Of a stretch of 64,000 nucleotides of DNA, positions 3,715 to 11,885 are shown piece by piece. Position 1 is the stretch's first letter. The number at the start of each line of letters is the position of its first letter. The stretch comes from Pseudomonadota bacterium (GTDB lineage Bacteria > Desulfobacterota > Binatia > Binatales > Binataceae). The stretch covers positions 124,001 through 188,000 of the forward strand of contig JAJPIL010000021.1 of the NCBI GenBank assembly GCA_021324755.1. Reading direction: 5' to 3'. The notes beneath the pieces were generated by a model. That model was not told the origin of the DNA and did no database searches. It saw nothing but the letters and a program-made list of their open reading frames with translations. The translations under genes and the position numbers were made by a program.

Positions 3715-5382
3715 TCAGTCGCATCCGAGAAATTCAAGCGCCGGAACTCCACCGGCGATATTCCCAAGCGGGGTGACTACGCCGCCACCCTGCACAGTGA
3801 CCGGATTTGCAAAAAGCATCGAGGGCGAGCAAACCGGCTGCTGCGTGCTCATGCTCAACGCCACGGCCGTAAGCGAGAAATCCGCAGTATTCGAGCTCGA
3901 CTGCGTAAACGTGGTATTCGTTTGGCTGGCGAGACCAACCACCGGTGGTGACGCCGGTACGGCCAGCGTAAAGCAGGCGCAATTCGCACCCGAAGGACAT
4001 GCGACCGACGATACCGACGGACAATTCGTCGTATCGGGGCTCGGGCTCGTGATTACCAGGCCCGAGGGCGGAAGCGTGCCGCCAGGCGTGCCAGTAGGAG
4101 GAACGATAAGCGGAACCGGCGCAAGAACGGGCGTGGCGCTTGCGCCCGGCGTAAACGATACGGCGGCGTTCAGGCGCACGAAATCGCCCGAGGTCGAAGG
4201 AGAGTTCTGGGTGCTTACCTCGCCGGCCATCTGTGCCCAAAGCGGTGTACCAGTGGCCGCCGGCGAAGGCTGGGGCAGAAGCGGAATCACAAGCCCGCTT
4301 GCGCCGCCGGTGGGACCGACTTGAACGCCGCTTAAAATGGTCGGGCCGCCCGGATTGGGATTAGCCGAGGAAAGCTGAGGCGCGTCGACCACGATATCGT
4401 AGGTTCCGGGGCCTACAGGGCAGAACTCGAAATTGCCGTTCGCGTCGCTAACCGTAGCCATCACAAGTTGCGAAACCGACTCGGTGGGAGTCGCCCCAGA
4501 GGCGGGCGCAGGAGTTCCGAGCGCTGCGTTGGGCGCGGACGGCTCCTGCTCGAGCCATACGCTTGCGCCCGCAACGGTATAGGCCGACGACGGCGTGGGC
4601 ACGGTTACAGGCTGGCCAGGTCCGGCCGACTGCCCGATTACGATCGTGCCCGCGATAAGAGGATTTACGCCAAGTTCGGAGGCTCGAAGCGTCGGTTTGA
4701 GGATAAACTTTCCGCTCTTACCCGCGGTTACCACCGAGGCACAGGCATTGAAGTCGATATCGATATCGACGCCCTGCCCCGCGCTTACCGTGATTCCTCC
4801 GTTCGCGATTTGGCCCGGCGGAATCTTGATACCAGTTTGGGAGGCGCTCGGCGTATCCAGCGGGTGGTAGTTCGAACTGGTGCCTGCCGTCTCTACGCAG
4901 TTGTAGACCTCCGAGCCAGCGGCGACACATTGGTTGGGCGTAAGCGTGACACCCGGAGTGTTGTTGGCCACGAGAATAAGCCTAATCTGCTCGTACTTTC
5001 CAGGCGGAAGGCCGCTTGTCTGGCCGAGCGTGGCAAGAACGCACTCGGTATTGGGCGCTGAGAGGAGATCGACCTGAATCGGATTGGTCACCGAAAGATT
5101 AGGCGTGAGGTTTACGAACCCGGCGTTCGCGTCGCTGCTGATTGCCGCTTCGACGCCCGCGATCGTAACCCACACGTGCTCGTAGGGACCGTTCGGTGCG
5201 GTGCATTGAGGCGCCGGGTCGCTGATATTCGTCGTAACCGTGCCGCTGCCGGGTGTGCTTGAACCGCCGCCGCCGCCACATCCAGCACCGTGGGTTGCCA
5301 GGATCGCCAATACCACGCCCAGAGCTGGCGTGAGCGCAACTACTGGCCTTAAATAAAACCGTCTGTTCCAAATTCGCGCCAT
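3715..5382 (-). CDS. DUF4382-domain lipoprotein
   Basis: A 555-residue exported protein starts at the ATG directly after a GTG; GGGAGG lies about 9 bases upstream. The N-terminus has a basic segment, a hydrophobic helix (about residues 13-31) and a Cys preceded by THGAG, consistent with a lipoprotein, then a Gly/Ser linker. Residues about 50-230 carry the DUF4382 pattern: ISDPAPQC, YEHVWVTIAGVEA, NPIQVDLLSAP, LPPGKYEQIRLILV. A carboxypeptidase-regulatory-like segment follows (GTIVIGQSAGPGQPVTVPTP, then NGNFEFCPVGPGTYDIVV). Such proteins are cell-surface lipoproteins of unknown role, perhaps carbohydrate or adhesion related. The upstream side is a 1.7-kb gene-free stretch. Confidence 0.8.
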   Translation of the reverse strand: MARIWNRRFYLRPVVALTPALGVVLAILATHGAGCGGGGGSSTPGSGTVTTNISDPAPQCTAPNGPYEHVWVTIAGVEAAISSDANAGFVNLTPNLSVTNPIQVDLLSAPNTECVLATLGQTSGLPPGKYEQIRLILVANNTPGVTLTPNQCVAAGSEVYNCVETAGTSSNYHPLDTPSASQTGIKIPPGQIANGGITVSAGQGVDIDIDFNACASVVTAGKSGKFILKPTLRASELGVNPLIAGTIVIGQSAGPGQPVTVPTPSSAYTVAGASVWLEQEPSAPNAALGTPAPASGATPTESVSQLVMATVSDANGNFEFCPVGPGTYDIVVDAPQLSSANPNPGGPTILSGVQVGPTGGASGLVIPLLPQPSPAATGTPLWAQMAGEVSTQNSPSTSGDFVRLNAAVSFTPGASATPVLAPVPLIVPPTGTPGGTLPPSGLVITSPSPDTTNCPSVSSVACPSGANCACFTLAVPASPPVVGLASQTNTTFTQSSSNTADFSLTAVALSMSTQQPVCSPSMLFANPVTVQGGGVVTPLGNIAGGVPALEFLGCD

Positions 5383-6135
5383 CACAGAGTTCCTCCCCCA
5401 ATAGGCGGACTCGAGCCTGTACGGCGTAATTCTTCCATCTTGTGCAGGCTAAAGTCTCCATCTTTTTATGTAATTTCTTCAACCTCAAGTGGCCTAAAAC
5501 CTCGAAACTTGCCCATCTTCTGCCAGCTCTGCTCGTACCATCGACCTTACCAAGTTGCAAAACGTAACACTATTATGCGTACCAAAGCACGCATTGCGTA
5601 AGAATCGTCGGACATCCACGCCGAGGATGAATACATAGGCGACCGTTCAAGTCAAATAAGTCGGGAACAAAGTCTCTTTGGCGAATCGGGCTTACAGCAA
5701 GACTTGCGCCAGGCAACTTCGAGCTGTGGACGGACGTAGAGCACGGACGAGGCGGGAAGTTTGCCGCAAACCGGCTGGAAGACCCGAGGCTTGCTGATAG
5801 CGGCAAGGGTTTGTCACAGCCTTGGGCCCAGGTGTCATCCGGGTAGCACTTGAATGCCTCTTATACATGCAGGTGAGTAAAACGGCGACGTATCGCGCGG
5901 TGAGTACGTCAGTAGCTATCGAAGGGTGCAGAGGCGCAGAAGGATGGCTGGAAGGGTGCGAAAGGCGTTTTGCAAAGCGCGAAAGTGCGCGGAGTTGGGC
6001 ATTTTTTGGCGATCCGTGCGGTTTATCTCTGGTTGCTGATTCTCATTTTGCAAATTGCGATAGGTTGGGTGGGCTGAAAAGCTAAGTATTTCGAGGGTTT
6101 CGCAGTTGGCATCGCGATTGCTATTGATAGTTCGT

Positions 6136-6240
6136 GGCGCTGTTCCCTCCCCCAAAGCAGCGCCTGTCCCCCAAGCAAGGCCGGGCTGCCGAGAGTGTGG
6201 GCTCCCCCCCACCCACACTCGCCTGAGGTGGCCCGGCTGT
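6136..6240 (+). ncRNA. Candidate structured RNA, copy 1 of a tandem triplet with C-rich loops
   Basis: Hairpin 1 pairs 6136-6142 with 6158-6164 (GGCGCTG/CAGCGCC) around a loop containing CCCTCCCCC. A linker containing TGTCCCCC follows. Hairpin 2 has an outer stem pairing 6180-6186 with 6231-6237 (GCCGGGC/GCCCGGC) and an inner stem of 9 perfect pairs (6193-6201 with 6212-6220, GAGTGTGGG/CCCACACTC) around CTCCCCCCCA. The same two-hairpin plan recurs at 6356 and 6576. The C-rich loops are complementary to Shine-Dalgarno sequences, suggesting a small regulatory RNA; strand is inferred from the terminator-like tail of copy 3. Confidence 0.5.
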
Positions 6241-6355
6241 CTCACCCCCCTCGATAGCGCCGCGCATAGGGCGAGCATCGCTCCAAGCCCGCGTCCGGGC
6301 GTGAGCCTTGCTCGCCTCGGCTACAGTGTCGACAAAAGCTTCCGCAGAGGACGCT

Positions 6356-6465
6356 GGATGTTGCTCCCTCCTCCTTTTGGCAACATCCCTCCTCCCGAGC
6401 GGGCCGGGCTGCTGAGAGCACGGGCTGTCCCCCCACCCGAGCTCGTTTCAAGGCAGCCCGGCAAA
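6356..6465 (+). ncRNA. Candidate structured RNA, copy 2 of a tandem triplet with C-rich loops
   Basis: Hairpin 1 pairs 6356-6363 with 6381-6388 (GGATGTTG/CAACATCC, 8 perfect pairs) and carries CTCCCTCCTCC in the loop. The linker contains CCTCCTCCC. Hairpin 2 has an outer stem of 10 perfect pairs (6403-6412 with 6453-6462, GCCGGGCTGC/GCAGCCCGGC) and an inner stem of about 9 pairs with one mismatch (6416-6424 with 6436-6444) around a C-rich loop. The stem-1 sequence differs completely from copies 1 and 3 while still pairing, which is the covariation expected of a functional RNA structure. Confidence 0.5.
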
Positions 6466-6495
6466 ATTTCCCTCGATGGCTCGCAATTTGCTACG

Positions 6496-6524
6496 TTGCT
6501 GACCTAGGTTTGCTAGGGTATGCT
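6496..6524 (+). promoter_or_regulatory. Sigma-70-like promoter before RNA copy 3
   Basis: TTGCTG (6496-6501), a 17-base spacer and TATGCT (6519-6524) form a reasonable -35/-10 pair on the plus strand. Transcription would begin near 6531, about 45 bases before the first hairpin of copy 3. This supports plus-strand orientation of the element. No equally good pair was found before copies 1 and 2. Confidence 0.4.
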
Positions 6525-6575
6525 CGATAAAGAGGCCGGCATAATAGGCATCGTTTTTGCTTCCTCCACTAAGTA

Positions 6576-6688
6576 GCGCTGCCCCTCTCCTGAGCAGCGC
6601 CTGTCCTCCCAACGGGCCGGGCTGCTTCGGATGTGAGTTCCCCCCGACTCCCATCCATAGTGATAAGCAGCCCGGCCGTCTTTTTAGC
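6576..6688 (+). ncRNA. Candidate structured RNA, copy 3, ending in a terminator-like hairpin
   Basis: Hairpin 1 pairs 6576-6582 with 6594-6600 (GCGCTGC/GCAGCGC) around CCCTCTCCT. The linker contains TGTCCTCCC. Hairpin 2 has a 13-pair perfect outer stem (6615-6627 with 6665-6677, GGCCGGGCTGCTT/AAGCAGCCCGGCC) and an inner stem of 10 pairs with one mismatch enclosing TCCCCCC. The outer stem is followed by GTCTTTTT (6678-6685), the arrangement of a Rho-independent terminator on the plus strand. The TTGCTG/TATGCT promoter pair lies 50-80 bases upstream. Confidence 0.55.
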
Positions 6689-7029
6689 CGCAACTTCGCT
6701 TCCTCGGCTGCCCGCAAGACGAGATATCGCCTTTGCGGGCCGCGCCGGTCCAAGATTGGCACATACATAGACGGCAGCTACGGGTGCGCACGAGCTTTTA
6801 TGTTGCCAAATAGGGCACGTGCGCTAGCGCCAAGAGCGGAACTGAAAAGCCATATTGTCGACATTAGCGGGGCAAGGACCGAGGGCATGCTTTTGCGCTC
6901 GAGCGCAAGCCAAGAGTCTGCACACGGAGCTCCGGCCGGGTAAAGAATCGAGGGCGACGGGCTTACGACGCAAGCGCCGGCGCTGCCAGCGCCTCAATAA
7001 AGCCAAAGCCTCGTTAGAGTAAGAAACGA

Positions 7030-7067
7030 GGGGGCGCTCCGGCGGAGAAGATACCAGGAGCACCCCC
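7030..7067 (-). terminator. Hairpin terminator downstream of the PQQ dehydrogenase
   Basis: GGGGGCGCTCC (7030-7040) pairs with GGAGCACCCCC (7057-7067) with one mismatch. It begins about 25 bases after the stop codon of the minus-strand dehydrogenase gene. A second small hairpin (CCTCGTT/AACGAGG, about 7010-7031) adjoins it. The T-run on the minus strand is weak, so efficiency is uncertain. Confidence 0.5.
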
Positions 7068-7091
7068 TTTCTGCGCGAACGGGAGGAAGGC

Positions 7092-8807
7092 TCAATGGGC
7101 TAAAGCGAAGACGAAAAGTGCGCCACCCTGCGGCGTTGCGGCCAGCATCTCCTTGCCGATTTCGCCCATGAAGCTCGGCGCGCTCTGGGGACGGCCGATT
7201 ACCACCGCGACGTACTGCTTGCCGTCGATCATGTACGTTATAGGCGCGGCGTTGATTCCGGAGCCAGGGGCGAACTCCCACAGGATCTTGCCCGACCGGG
7301 CGTCGACCGCTCTAAAGTAGCCGTCAAAGGTGCCGTAGAACACCAGGCCACCGCCGGTCGAGATAACTCCGCCATTGTACGGGAAGCGCTCGTTTATTCC
7401 CCATACTTCTTTCTGGTTGACCGGGTCCCAAGCGACAAGCCGCCCCAAGTAGTCGCCGTGGCCGCGAATAATCTCGAAGTCGTTACCAAGGTAGAACATC
7501 CCCTGATGGTAATCCACTTCGACGTCCTTCATATTCATGCACATGTTGTTGGTGCTCATGTAGACGAGACCGGTTTGCTGGTCATAGGTCATCGGCTGCC
7601 AATCCTTGCCGCCGAAGAGGCTCGGGCAGATGTCGGTCGCTTTATGGGTCATCGAGGGGCGCTTTTCGGAGATTTCTATTGGGCGGCCGGTCTTGAGGTC
7701 GATACCTTCGGCCCAGTTGACGTAGACGTAAGGCCGGGCCGAGATAAGCTTGCCGGTTTTGCGGTTGGCGACGTAGAAGAAGCCGTTGCGGTCGGCATGG
7801 AGCAGCACCGGCACCTTCTCGCCGTTGATCGTAAGGTCGGTCAGGACCGACTCGTTGACGCCGTCGTAGTCCCAGGCGTCATGGGGCGTGTACTGGATAT
7901 GCCAGAGGATTTTGCCGTCGTCGGGGTTGAGCGCGAGCACGCTGGAGGAGTAGAGGTTGGTGAAGCGGCCGTAGTCAGAGGTTCCCGGGCCGCGCACCGA
8001 CGTATTCCACGGGCCGGGATTGCTCGTGCCCCAGTACACGATATGGAGGTCGGGGTCGTACGAGCCGTAAAGCCAGGTCGAGGCACCACCGTGTTTCCAG
8101 CTGTCGCCCTTCCAGGTGTCGTTGCCGGGCTCGCCCGGGCCAGGCACGGTGTAGGTGCGCCAGATAAGCTTGCCGGTGTCGGCGTCGTAGGCCTGCAGCG
8201 CGCCGCGCACGCCGTACTCGCCGCCGGCAAAGCCGGTAATCACTTTATTGTCGACCACCAGCGGCGGCGAGGTTATAACCTTGCCTTCCTTGTAGTCGAC
8301 CACTTTCGTCTTCCAGATCGGCTTGCCGGTCTCGGCGTTGAGCGCCACCAGGTAGCCGTTGAGCTGGCCGAAGAAGATCTTGCCGTTGGCGTAAGCCACG
8401 CCGCGCGTGTCGACATCGCAGCACGCGTACTGAATCACGTCCTCCGGCACGCCGCTTTCGTACACCCATTTGCGCGCTCCCGTGCGCGCGTCGATCGCGT
8501 AGACGTACTTAGGTCCCCACGAGCTCGCAACGTACATCGTGTCGCCGACCACGATCGGCGAATCCTCGTTGGCGCGAAGCGCGCCGAGCTGGAGCGAGTA
8601 AACCACGCGCAGGTCCTTGACGTTGTCGGTGTTGATCTGGTCGAGCGGGCTGTAGCGCGTATTTGCCTGGTCTCCCCCATGGTACGGCCAGTCGCGGTTC
8701 TGCGCCCAGGCATCGAGCGTTCGCCCCACGACACCCAGGCTCAGAAAGCAGAGCGCCAAAAATACGGGCGCAAAGCGCCAATACTTGCTGCCTTTACTCA
8801 TACGCAT
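7092..8807 (-). CDS. Lanthanide-type PQQ-dependent alcohol dehydrogenase
   Basis: This is a 571-residue periplasmic quinoprotein of the methanol/ethanol dehydrogenase family, an eight-bladed propeller. The start is placed at MRMSKGSKYW after GGGGGA; the frame runs 42 residues further upstream without plausible initiation. A signal peptide ends near AWA-QN (residues 33-36). Family marks are NTRYSPLDQI, vicinal Cys129-Cys130 (YACCDVDTRG), the metal-ligand Glu197 (GGEYGVRG), Asn263 and catalytic Asp313 in WDYDG. Asp315, two residues after the catalytic Asp, is the extra ligand found in lanthanide-dependent XoxF/PedH/ExaF enzymes and is Ala in calcium-type MxaF. No cytochrome c or PQQ synthesis gene is adjacent, so the electron acceptor is unknown. 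Confidence 0.92.
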   Translation of the reverse strand: MRMSKGSKYWRFAPVFLALCFLSLGVVGRTLDAWAQNRDWPYHGGDQANTRYSPLDQINTDNVKDLRVVYSLQLGALRANEDSPIVVGDTMYVASSWGPKYVYAIDARTGARKWVYESGVPEDVIQYACCDVDTRGVAYANGKIFFGQLNGYLVALNAETGKPIWKTKVVDYKEGKVITSPPLVVDNKVITGFAGGEYGVRGALQAYDADTGKLIWRTYTVPGPGEPGNDTWKGDSWKHGGASTWLYGSYDPDLHIVYWGTSNPGPWNTSVRGPGTSDYGRFTNLYSSSVLALNPDDGKILWHIQYTPHDAWDYDGVNESVLTDLTINGEKVPVLLHADRNGFFYVANRKTGKLISARPYVYVNWAEGIDLKTGRPIEISEKRPSMTHKATDICPSLFGGKDWQPMTYDQQTGLVYMSTNNMCMNMKDVEVDYHQGMFYLGNDFEIIRGHGDYLGRLVAWDPVNQKEVWGINERFPYNGGVISTGGGLVFYGTFDGYFRAVDARSGKILWEFAPGSGINAAPITYMIDGKQYVAVVIGRPQSAPSFMGEIGKEMLAATPQGGALFVFALAH

Positions 8808-9482
8808 GTGAATCCCCCATTTAGTTTTTTCTTCCAGCCTTGCTTTTTTCTTTGGACCTGGCAAAAGAGGCGACGGTTTCCAGTGCAAAATCAAAAGCTC
8901 TACTTCCTCTGCTTCCTCTGTGCGCTCGACCACGGCTTGGCCTTAAAACTGCGCGCAAGCGCAAGCAAGGTATAAAACCTGCGCCCAAACGCAGAAGCCC
9001 TACCCGAAGCAAAAAAGCTTACTAGCCGCGCCTTCGCTCCAAAAACCCAGGCTGAATTTTTCTAGAACGAAAGACCCCCGCAAGGTTTGATTCGCGGTTT
9101 AACACAGACCGCAAAACCTGTCAAGAAATTCTCTGCTTGCCAAGCGCGGGTGGGCAACCCAAATTCGCCTTTTCACCGAAACCTAAGCGGCATGATTTGC
9201 ACGCGCTTACCCCATCTCGCCCATCGCAGACATCGGTTGCGCCAAAAAGCGTAAGTCTTAAAAAGCCGTGCCAAAACAGCTCGAAGGCGCAAAATACAAG
9301 TCCGACAAAGCGCGACGTGCCCTTACGGTCGGAGCAGAGCCTTGCGTTTTGTGCGCCGGCACTCCAACGTGTAAGGTTTTTTCGTGATATGGGGCTCAAG
9401 GCAGCGGGCGCTTCGTGAGGTGGAGCGCAAGACTTTCCGCGCCGCAAGAAAAGGCGAAACTTAAAGAAGGAGGTCGAGGGCG
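8808..9482. other. Divergent intergenic region, no gene seen
   Basis: About 675 bases separate the divergent dehydrogenase and phosphoketolase genes, so both promoters should lie here. AT-richer patches occur near 8820-8900 and 9235-9300. I cannot pick a convincing -35/-10 pair or any coding frame with normal codon use. Confidence 0.4.
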
Positions 9483-11885
9483 ATGACGGCAAGCGCTCCT
9501 TGGGAGGCAGCATTGTCGGTTTCCGAGGCTCCGCTTTCTGACGACGAGCTCGATGCGATCGACGCTTATTGGCGCGCGGCGAACTATCTGTGCGTCGGGA
9601 TGCTGTACTTGAGGGACAATCCGCTGCTGAGACAGCCGCTCAAGCCCGAGCATATCAAGCGCCGCCTCTTGGGCCATTGGGGCTCAGACCCTGGGCAGAA
9701 CTTCGTCTGGGTGCACATGAACCGGCTTATCAAGAAGTACGACCTAAACGCGCTTTATATCGCGGGTCCCGGCCATGGGGCGCCGGCCTCGATCGCGAAC
9801 GCCTATCTGGAGGGCGTTTATTCGGAGGTGTACCCCGACCGCAGCGAGGACGAGGAGGGGATGGCGCGGCTGTTTCGGCTGTTCTCCGCGCCCGGCGGCG
9901 TGGGCAGCCATTGCACGCCCGAGCTTCCCGGCTCGATTCACGAAGGGGGCGAGCTCGGCTACAGCTTGTCCCATGCCTTCGGCGCGGCGTTCGACAATCC
10001 CGACCTTTTGGTGGTAGCCGTGGTGGGCGACGGCGAGGCCGAGACCGGGCCGCTTGCCACGTCGTGGCATTCGAACAAGTTCCTCAACCCGATTCGCGAC
10101 GGCGCGGTGCTGCCGATTCTCCATCTCAACGGCTACAAGATCGCCAACCCGACCGTGCTGGCGCGTATTCCCCAGGACGAGCTTTTGGCGCTGCTCTACG
10201 GCTACGGATGGGCGCCGTACGTGGTCGAGGGCGAGGAGCCGCGCGCGGTGCATCAGCGGATGGCGGCCGTGCTCGAGCATTGCGTAAACGAAATTCGCTC
10301 CATCCAGAGGCGGGCGCGCACAGGCGGCAAGCCAGAGCGCCCGCGATGGCCGGCGGTGATTCTGCGCACGCCCAAGGGATGGACCGGGCCGAAGGAGGTC
10401 GACGGCCACAAGGTCGAGGGCTTCTGGCGCGCCCATCAGGTGCCGATTCCGGACCCGGCGAGCAATCCCGCCCATCTCGCGCTGCTCGAGCGCTGGATGA
10501 AGAGCTATCGGCCCGAACAGCTGTTCGACGAACGTGGCCGGCTCAAGCCGGAGCTCAAAGCGCTTGCCCCGACCGGGAAGCGGCGGATGAGTGCGAATCC
10601 CCATGCCAACGGCGGCCTTCTGCGCCGGCCGCTCAAGCTTCCCGACTATCGCCGCTACGCCGTGGCGGTCGAGCGGCGCGCCGGCACGACGGCCGAAAAC
10701 ACGTACGTTTTGGGAACTTTTTTGCGCGACGTGATGCGGCTAAATCCGGACAACTTCCGGCTTTTCGGCCCGGACGAGACCGCCTCAAACCGGCTTCAGG
10801 CGGTCTACGAGGCGAGCAAGAAGACGTGGCTCGGCGAGTTCAGGCCCGAAGACGCCGACGGTGGCGAGCTTGCCCCTGATGGGCGCGTGATGGAGATGCT
10901 GTCGGAGCATACGCTCGAAGGATGGCTCGAAGGCTACCTGCTTACCGGACGTCACGGTTTTATCTCGACTTACGAGGCGTTCGCGCACGTGATCGACTCG
11001 ATGGTGAATCAGCACGCCAAATGGCTCGAGAAATGTCGCGAGATTCCGTGGCGCGCGCCGATATCCTCGCTCAACATTCTTCTTAGCTCCACCGTATGGC
11101 GCCAGGACCACAACGGCTTTACCCATCAGGACCCGGGCTTTATCGACGTTATCACCAACAAAGCGCCCGCGGTCGTGCGCATCTATCTTCCGCCCGACGC
11201 CAACTGTCTTTTGAGCGTGGCCGACCATTGCCTTCGCAGCACGGGCTACGTCAACGTGATCGTGGCCGACAAGCAGCCCCATCTGCAGTACCTTCCGATC
11301 GACGAGGCGGCACGCCATTGCGCCAAGGGAATCGGGCTCTGGCAATGGGCGAGCAACGACGAGGGTCACGAGCCCGACGTCGTGCTGGCCTGCGCCGGCG
11401 ACGTCGCCACGCAGGAGGCGCTGGCCGCGGCTGCGATCCTGCGCGAGCATCTGCCCGAGCTTCGGCTGCGCTTTATCAACGTAGTCGATCTCTTCAAGCT
11501 TACGCCCGCAAGCGAACATCCCCATGGCCTTTCCGACCGCGACTTCGACGGGCTGTTCACCGTGGACAAGCCGATCGTCTTCAACTTCCACGGCTACCCT
11601 TACCTCATCCACAAGCTCACCTACCGGCGCACCAACCATCGTAACCTCCACGTGCGCGGCTACAAGGAGATCGGCTCGATCAACACCCCGCTCCAGCTCG
11701 CGATCGCAAACCAGATCGACCGCTTCAATCTGGCCAACGACATAATCGACCGCGTGCCGTGGGCCAGAAACTCGTGCGCGCGGCTCAAGGATTGGCTAAA
11801 GGACCAGATCGTCGACCATCTGGAGTACGCGCTCGAGCACGGCGTCGACAAGCCCGAGACGGCCAACTGGCGATGGCCGTTCTAG
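9483..11885 (+). CDS. xfp: Xylulose-5-phosphate/fructose-6-phosphate phosphoketolase
   Basis: The 800-residue protein has the usual family length and the thiamine-diphosphate marks GPGHGAPA (residues 95-102), [20 protein letters not shown] (about 138-157) and [11 protein letters not shown] (180-190), plus the C-terminal blocks [13 protein letters not shown] and [18 protein letters not shown]. It cleaves xylulose 5-phosphate and/or fructose 6-phosphate with phosphate to acetyl phosphate plus glyceraldehyde 3-phosphate or erythrose 4-phosphate. An ideal AAGGAGGT ribosome site precedes the ATG. It stands alone: no acetate kinase or phosphotransacetylase gene is nearby, so the fate of acetyl phosphate must be encoded elsewhere. 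It diverges from the alcohol dehydrogenase. Confidence 0.97.

Follow-up and report, generated by a model that had tools for sequence, protein, structure and literature searches.

What do three tandem copies of a two-hairpin element encode? They lie on the plus strand of the 64,000-nucleotide stretch of Binataceae DNA analysed here (hereafter the window), which belongs to a genome of 3.07 Mb in 29 contigs. The copies had been noticed in a reading made from the sequence alone, and all three structured copies were confirmed at the positions given in Table 1. In each, hairpin 1 consists of 7–10 pairs closing a C-rich loop and is followed by a C-rich linker; in copy 2, the sequence CCUCCUCCC overlaps the end of this linker. 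In hairpin 2, an outer stem of 11–13 pairs leads through an asymmetric internal loop to a nested inner stem, whose loop contains a run of six or seven C. The fold calculation that the same reading had proposed gave clearly negative z scores (Table 1), and for each copy none of 200 dinucleotide shuffles folded as well. Stem 1 was said to diverge between copies while still pairing, and indeed compensatory changes at three model pairs set copy 2 apart from copies 1 and 3.

Table 1. Coordinates of the features of the three-copy array in the window (R1, covariance model; z, fold score relative to dinucleotide shuffles).
Feature	Position	Strand	Sequence or parts	Remarks
Enhancer-like palindrome (distal), copy 1	5969..5983	+	TTTGCAAAGCGCGAA	-167 from hairpin 1; 10/12 to TTCGCA-N3-TGCGAA
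Enhancer-like palindrome (proximal), copy 1	6047..6061	+	TTTGCAAATTGCGAT	-89; 12/13 to the LuxO-site consensus given in PMC10162802
Putative sigma-54 -24/-12 promoter, copy 1	6107..6122	+	TGGCATCGCGATTGCT	strict match; position conserved in family
sRNA copy 1	6136..6243	+	hairpin 1 6136-6164, linker 6165-6178, hairpin 2 6179-6238	R1 86.8 bits, E 2.9e-15 (copy in R1 seed); z -4.2
Possible sigma-54 element, copy 2	6298..6311	+	GGCGTGAGCCTTGC	45 nt before hairpin 1, atypical (others 12-15 nt)
sRNA copy 2	6356..6468	+	hairpin 1 6356-6388, hairpin 2 6403-6462	R1 70.7 bits (copy in R1 seed); z -3.7
Weak enhancer-like site, copy 3	6480..6494	+	CTCGCAATTTGCTAC	-95; 9/12 match
Putative sigma-54 -24/-12 promoter, copy 3	6546..6561	+	AGGCATCGTTTTTGCT	strict match
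sRNA copy 3	6575..6685	+	hairpin 1 6576-6600, linker 6601-6614, hairpin 2 6615-6677, T-run 6681-6685	R1 83 bits (copy in R1 seed); z -6.1

A covariance model, called R1, was built from the three window copies and 18 homologues found by BLAST, the seed being supplied by 19 positive genomes (window genome included). The search of the lineage that had been suggested showed that 33 of 41 Binataceae genomes, from 13 of 17 genera, carry the RNA, with best E values per genome from 2.2e-20 to 5.8e-8. The tandem triplet is not a feature of the family: 32 of the 33 positive genomes carry a single copy, and three are found solely in the window genome. The eight negative Binataceae genomes gave no match with laxer filters either, and all eight retain RpoN. 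A class-wide R1 search of 148 genomes, the family included, returned the same 33 positives and none among the 107 others; it used stricter filters and scored 25 candidates per genome, so that weak homologues in the class may be missed. A phylum sample (n=395) gave matches in six genomes of the family; three weak ones, from outside it (E 0.01–0.06), were taken as chance. Beyond the phylum, one pattern scan of collections of named genomes gave at least 118 loci, mostly chance, and R1 confirmed 16 among the matches listed, 11 of them named: Binataceae/Binatus (4), Deltaproteobacteria (4), Proteobacteria (2) and Acidobacteriota (1). A metagenome-assembled genome labelled Acidobacteriota (L083, JAFAPG010000730.1) carries the RNA at 89.8 bits and is probably a mislabelled Binatota genome. 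The plasmid search gave no match for the RNA.

At the gathering threshold, no Rfam family was found in the window, riboswitch matches of its copies being below threshold and rejected; in the loci of 20 relatives tRNAs were matched, and none of the matches was to the RNA itself. A literature search found no paper connecting small RNAs with Binatota or Binatia, and none combining sigma54, sRNA and UCCC; subscription papers were mostly outside its scope, so this is no proof of absence.

Covariation was scored on two alignments. In the model-fitted alignment of 35 copies, 95.8% of the cells pair and 15 of the 25 pairs have changes on both sides. Its covariation score was 0.242, versus 0.131 +/- 0.007 for shuffled alignments and at most 0.084 with slid partners; such an alignment leans towards structure and kinship inflates the comparison with shuffles, that with slid partners being less affected. 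In a MAFFT alignment of 21 sequences, made without structure, the score was 0.218, versus 0.132 +/- 0.010 for shuffles (subject to the same inflation) and at most 0.071 with slid partners, and 10 pairs had changed on both sides; on another measure, that of further pair types, 10 of 500 shuffles equalled this alignment. The sequence-only reading had named a lack of covariation in homologues as what would speak against an RNA; in these alignments, covariation is strong. Together with the homologues and the absence of an Rfam match, it supports the proposal of a new structured small RNA family with C-rich loops. The family is previously undescribed.

Three tandem copies could also point to a repeat or mobile element, and the array might be what is left of a decayed protein gene. 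Such readings are contradicted by the single copy present in 32 of 33 positive genomes, by the absence of Pfam matches in the seven overlapping or adjacent small ORFs scanned, and by the covariation of the stems. They were rejected, and we give them next to no credence.

The 3' end of the RNA bears on its strand. A U-tract (at least five T in eight bases) follows hairpin 2 in 26 of 35 copies, one row (L057) being mis-parsed and scored as a miss, compared to 2 of 35 in the minus-strand control. A clear tract is missing in nine copies, which include the genera g4 and g3 and two of the three window copies: copies 1 and 2 have weak T tails, and copy 3 has a T-run. A terminator-pattern scan of the window detected none at the three copies. 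If the product came instead from the minus strand, its loops would show GGA/GGGAGG and the RNA could act as a CsrA sponge. In copy 3 the two strands fold equally well (z -6.14 for minus, -6.11 for plus) and the minus-strand loops have GGAG-like motifs, but for copies 1 and 2 the minus-strand fold is poorer (z -0.8 and -2.7), the minus strands score at most 25.7 bits with R1 (a model built on the plus strand), and it is on the plus strand that a promoter element precedes the RNA and a U-tract follows it. A minus-strand sponge is therefore highly improbable in our view.

How might a plus-strand RNA be transcribed? A strict form of the sigma-54 -24/-12 element, [TCA]GGCA[CT]-N5-TTGC[TA], had only two matches in the 64 kb, both strands counted together, and these lie directly upstream of copies 1 and 3. 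A relaxed form, GG[CT][AG][CT]-N5-TTGC, was present upstream of all 35 copies and only once in 9184 background positions (-400 to -100 in 32 relatives' loci); such counts across genomes, and those of the palindromes described below, are not independent, because the elements are shared by descent. Sigma-54 promoters have GG at -24 and TGC at -12, as described in PMC3844500. The element ends 12–15 nt before hairpin 1 in 34 of the 35 copies, so that the RNA is predicted to start at hairpin 1. For copy 3, the earlier reading had reported a promoter pair and a terminator-like T-run. Both are present, but the promoter is a sigma-54 -24/-12 element and not a sigma-70-like one; the latter was rejected, as a sigma-70 scan from 5400 to 7100 gave a single site, at 5547, away from the copies. 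All 41 family genomes have RpoN. In the window genome, sigma-54 activators gave ten matches above 200 bits, another at 85 bits and four weak ones. On this evidence, the RNA is apparently switched on by an activator-dependent sigma-54 promoter.

Putative enhancer sites lie further upstream. When the sequence upstream of the promoter was searched for spaced tetramers, TCGC-N7-GAAA and dyads overlapping it were revealed in up to 9 sequence groups, compared to at most 4 in any of three base shuffles. The tetramers resolve into palindromes, TTCGCA-N3-TGCGAA, located mostly near -85 and -155; some regions have one at -194 as well, and in a few genera the positions are displaced (to -118 and -189 in g4, for example). 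A palindrome matching at 10 or more of 12 positions was present in 30 of 35 upstream regions, versus a mean of 3.7% and a highest value of 14.3% in 20 rounds of dinucleotide shuffles, a count that is favoured because the consensus was derived from these same regions. The LuxO consensus itself gave a weaker result, with at least 10 of 13 positions in 29 of 35 regions versus 79 of 700 base-shuffled regions. No convincing palindrome was found in the region upstream of copy 2.

The same motifs were used to look for the activator. Near the window genome's own activator genes, no palindrome was convincing. A combined enhancer-promoter pattern gave 73 matches in the 41 genomes, 18 at the RNA's own promoters and 55 elsewhere, compared to 27 for the reversed control; it had no match in the window genome, its RNA copies included. 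In one relative it led to an NtrC/AlgB-type activator gene beside a hemerythrin-like ORF, which could be chance. At this place (L290:1-1433; G022:C135:18000-20000), an enhancer-like palindrome lies between two divergent sigma-54-like elements, before the activator gene and the hemerythrin-like ORF. The activator, which we take to be AlgB-like, is possibly an autoregulated activator of the same kind, and the best window-genome protein is 45% identical to it. At another locus (L289; G002:C35:69500-71500), two sigma-54-like elements with palindromes are found near a secreted-looking protein of 108 aa (MKAIKTVLTAA...). NCBIfam models applied to the ten window-genome activators gave no family above cut-off among the matches listed, the LuxO model being below cut-off for all ten, and PDB searches with three of the ten did not single out LuxO.

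Inspection of the neighbourhood revealed a recurrent partner. In 24 of 32 loci from relatives, a divergent Pro-Arg-His-Lys tRNA cluster, either complete or represented by two or three of its tRNAs, is located 243–739 nt upstream of the RNA; in two further loci the distance is 1.7 and 3.1 kb (26 of 32 in total). As for the other six loci, one is cut by a contig end and five have the cluster on a different contig. In four RNA-negative genomes the cluster was retrieved, with four tRNAs in G008 and G011 and Pro-Arg only in G015 and G027. In the window genome it is on contig C13 (L266), with Pro-Arg only at that place, and the sRNA is absent there. The three window copies form one clade (support 0.80), with copies 2 and 3 on long branches. 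This suggests, tentatively since it is based on about 110 nt, that the gene was relocated and triplicated in the window lineage, and that two copies diverged.

Protein neighbours are little conserved. Clustering over 21 loci, with a crude ORF caller, found no ORF cluster in more than three loci except one in six; this one coincides in position with the tRNA cluster and probably represents a false frame. Little-conserved protein neighbours around a conserved RNA fit what is expected of a trans-acting RNA. In the window, the array is flanked on the left by a gene for a DUF4382 protein with a lipoprotein-like start (3715-5385, minus strand). Beside it lie a PQQ-dependent alcohol dehydrogenase-type gene (7092-8933), on the strand opposite to the copies, and a phosphoketolase gene (9483-11885), the two making up a carbon-metabolism setting; in the 20 loci of relatives that were clustered, neither was seen as a shared neighbour of the RNA. 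The resemblance of hairpin 2 and its U-tract to a terminator, and the frequent tRNA cluster nearby, could be taken to mean that the element is a cis-acting leader, or a terminator pair, of a flanking gene or of the tRNA operon. However, the tRNA cluster is divergent, the protein neighbours differ between most genera, the RNA has its own promoter element, and the downstream gene in the window is on the opposite strand. We regard a cis-acting role as very improbable and retain the trans-acting one.

What such an RNA displays was examined in the 35 copies. CCCC was found in loop 1 of 32, in the linker of 31 and in the inner part of hairpin 2 of all 35, and UCCCC in 31, 31 and 34 copies, respectively; the parsing is approximate, above all for L065, L068 and L210, and the hairpin 2 stretch extends past the apical loop. 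By the same approximate parsing, CCUCC was present in loop 1 of 15 copies (13 relatives and window copies 1 and 2), in the linker of two (copies 2 and 3) and in hairpin 2 of none. The anti-Shine-Dalgarno loops of CCUCC type that had been proposed are thus C-rich as described, but CCUCC is not the shared motif, the common display being CCCC/UCCCC. The distribution suggests that UCCCC is the ancestral display and that the linker CCUCC is new in copies 2 and 3. No match to Hfq (PF17209) was found in the 41 Binataceae genomes, while the same search was positive in 5 of 14 control genomes, including E. coli and B. subtilis. The Binataceae are apparently an Hfq-less lineage with a conserved sRNA.

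Targets were searched with a single pattern, a complement of the linker with an ATG after it. It gave 128 matches, one of which is the RNA's own complement (in G033), versus 44 for the reversed pattern, an excess that may reflect ordinary Shine-Dalgarno or composition bias. Inspection of 43 distinct sites (50 loci, 20 of them picked by eye and 30 drawn automatically) found no convincing start-codon site common to genera. Look-alike sites recur across genera in three groups, and these were taken as antisense to protein genes because a conserved frame runs on the opposite strand, with 79–99% (L331-L333), 45% (L334/L335) and 64–87% (L339-L341) identity; in L339/L340 the frames on the strand of the site also match, at 47%. 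In genus g15, an identical linker-complementary site lies directly before the ATG of a 272-residue frame in 4 genomes (L328, L298; matches in G026, G032 and G034), and it may lie inside a gene, because this frame is open far upstream.

We compared the family with known small RNAs, drawing on PMC10746234, PMC10253847, PMC3927594, PMC4132741, PMC3844500 and PMC10162802. Membership of the alpha-r14/cuckoo group, which the sequence-only reading had brought up, was not supported. Rhizobial alpha-r14/NfeR1 (RF02344) is similar in having anti-Shine-Dalgarno C/U motifs in hairpin loops and diverging stems. It differs in that it has three hairpins, each with an identical CCUCCUCCC, compared to two hairpins here. 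The ar14 model scored 14.9–16.1 bits on the window copies versus a gathering threshold of 58.8, and CCUCC is sparse in the family (15, 2 and 0 of 35). The NfeR1 promoter, as presented in PMC10746234, is without a sigma-54 signature. CcsR/cuckoo RNAs of Rhodobacter and relatives share with the window the arrangement of several small RNAs side by side. They have C-rich anti-Shine-Dalgarno loops. As PMC10253847 describes, an RpoHI/HII promoter drives a common transcript of the CcsR RNAs and a DUF1127 gene, and RNase E takes part in its processing, whereas sigma-54 elements precede the copies here; around the array, the 10 ORFs of the window that were scanned gave no match to DUF1127.

Small RNA genes under sigma-54 control offer closer parallels on the input side, where the family shows a -24 GG/-12 GC element in 35 of 35 copies and predicted upstream activator sites in 30 of 35. 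GlmY/GlmZ likewise have a sigma-54 promoter element. They are unrelated in RNA and mechanism and are not known to display C-runs. Their sigma-54 promoters are reported in PMC3844500. The Qrr RNAs of Vibrio work with Hfq, in contrast to the Binataceae, with an Hfq match in 0 of 41 genomes. According to the account in PMC10162802, their sigma-54 promoters have two upstream activator sites between -60 and -175, LuxO and SypG being the activators of Vibrio qrr1, and the site cores are alike (TTGCAWWWTGCAA for LuxO, TTCTCANNNTGMDWN for SypG and TTCGCANNNTGCGAA here). No Rfam match to Qrr reached threshold.

On the output side, the closest likeness is with LhrC1-5 of Listeria monocytogenes. These RNAs, which like RsaE are UCCC-motif sRNAs, are 111–114 nt long, and each carries UCCC at three redundant places, one in a loop, one in the linker and one in the terminator loop; the three sites recognise target mRNA, and Hfq is not needed for the effect (as set out in PMC4132741). 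The family described here resembles them in its length of about 110 nt, in its C-run sites in loop, linker and terminator hairpin (CCCC in 32, 31 and 35 of 35 copies), in its several copies, here in the window genome, and in its predicted control by signalling. It differs from LhrC in belonging to a different phylum and in its sigma-54 element in place of LisRK control, and most Binataceae genomes have a single copy whereas LhrC has several. LhrC is absent from the nine Rfam matches up to E 10, none of which reaches gathering. No homology to LhrC or Qrr was seen by these comparisons.

The best explanation, and in our judgement a fairly probable one, is a trans-acting sRNA that is controlled by sigma-54 and an enhancer, works independently of Hfq and base-pairs with ribosome-binding sites rich in G. 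Its structure, covariation, family, promoter element, palindromes, U-tract and absence of Hfq match were read from the sequence; transcription, activation, target pairing and repression we infer. The three elements would be genes for a trans-acting regulatory RNA of about 110 nt, extending from the base of hairpin 1 to the U-tract after hairpin 2. Transcription would proceed from the RpoN promoter with an enhancer-binding protein on the palindromes near -85 and -155, and the RNA would be made only when a signal activates this protein, because a sigma-54 promoter requires it. Three separate C-runs (CCCC/UCCCC), one exposed in each of loop 1, the linker and the hairpin 2 inner loop, would base-pair with Shine-Dalgarno regions rich in G and prevent translation, with no need of Hfq. 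Repression by Shine-Dalgarno pairing is proposed because the layout is that of LhrC, whose three sites recognise mRNA without Hfq. In the window genome, the gene would have come to lie apart from its usual tRNA neighbours and been triplicated, the linker run changing in copies 2 and 3 to CCUCC, an exact anti-Shine-Dalgarno sequence.

The main rival of Shine-Dalgarno pairing is a protein decoy, in which the same sigma-54-driven RNA would use its three C-runs to titrate an RNA-binding protein, as CsrB/RsmZ titrate CsrA via GGA loops. The display of one short motif three times per RNA, the several copies in the window genome and the lack of a supported mRNA target from the one target pattern all speak for it. 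However, conservation of the linker extends well past the C-run (UGUCCCCAAGCA or a near-identical sequence in most genera), which suggests a base-pairing role, and we know of no bacterial C-run-binding regulator for this lineage. We hold a decoy to be unlikely, though less so than the other alternatives considered above.

More tentatively, and on balance doubtfully, the Binataceae, in which no Hfq was found, may have independently evolved a Qrr-like input (sigma-54 and an enhancer protein of LuxO/SypG type) joined to an LhrC-like output (three C-run seeds for many Shine-Dalgarno sites), the triplication in the window genome splitting the RNA into specialised copies, two of them with the linker seed changed from UCCCC to CCUCC. 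If Shine-Dalgarno pairing is correct, Candidatus Binatota would have a regulatory RNA family whose structure, promoter, enhancer and terminator are all legible from the sequence. It would also be a case of convergence, with the three-C-run layout of the Firmicutes LhrC in a lineage where no Hfq was found, and such a recurrence would make sRNA pairing without Hfq open to comparative testing. The covariance model and the enhancer motif could be used at once for annotating Binatota genomes and for seeking the activator and its signal.
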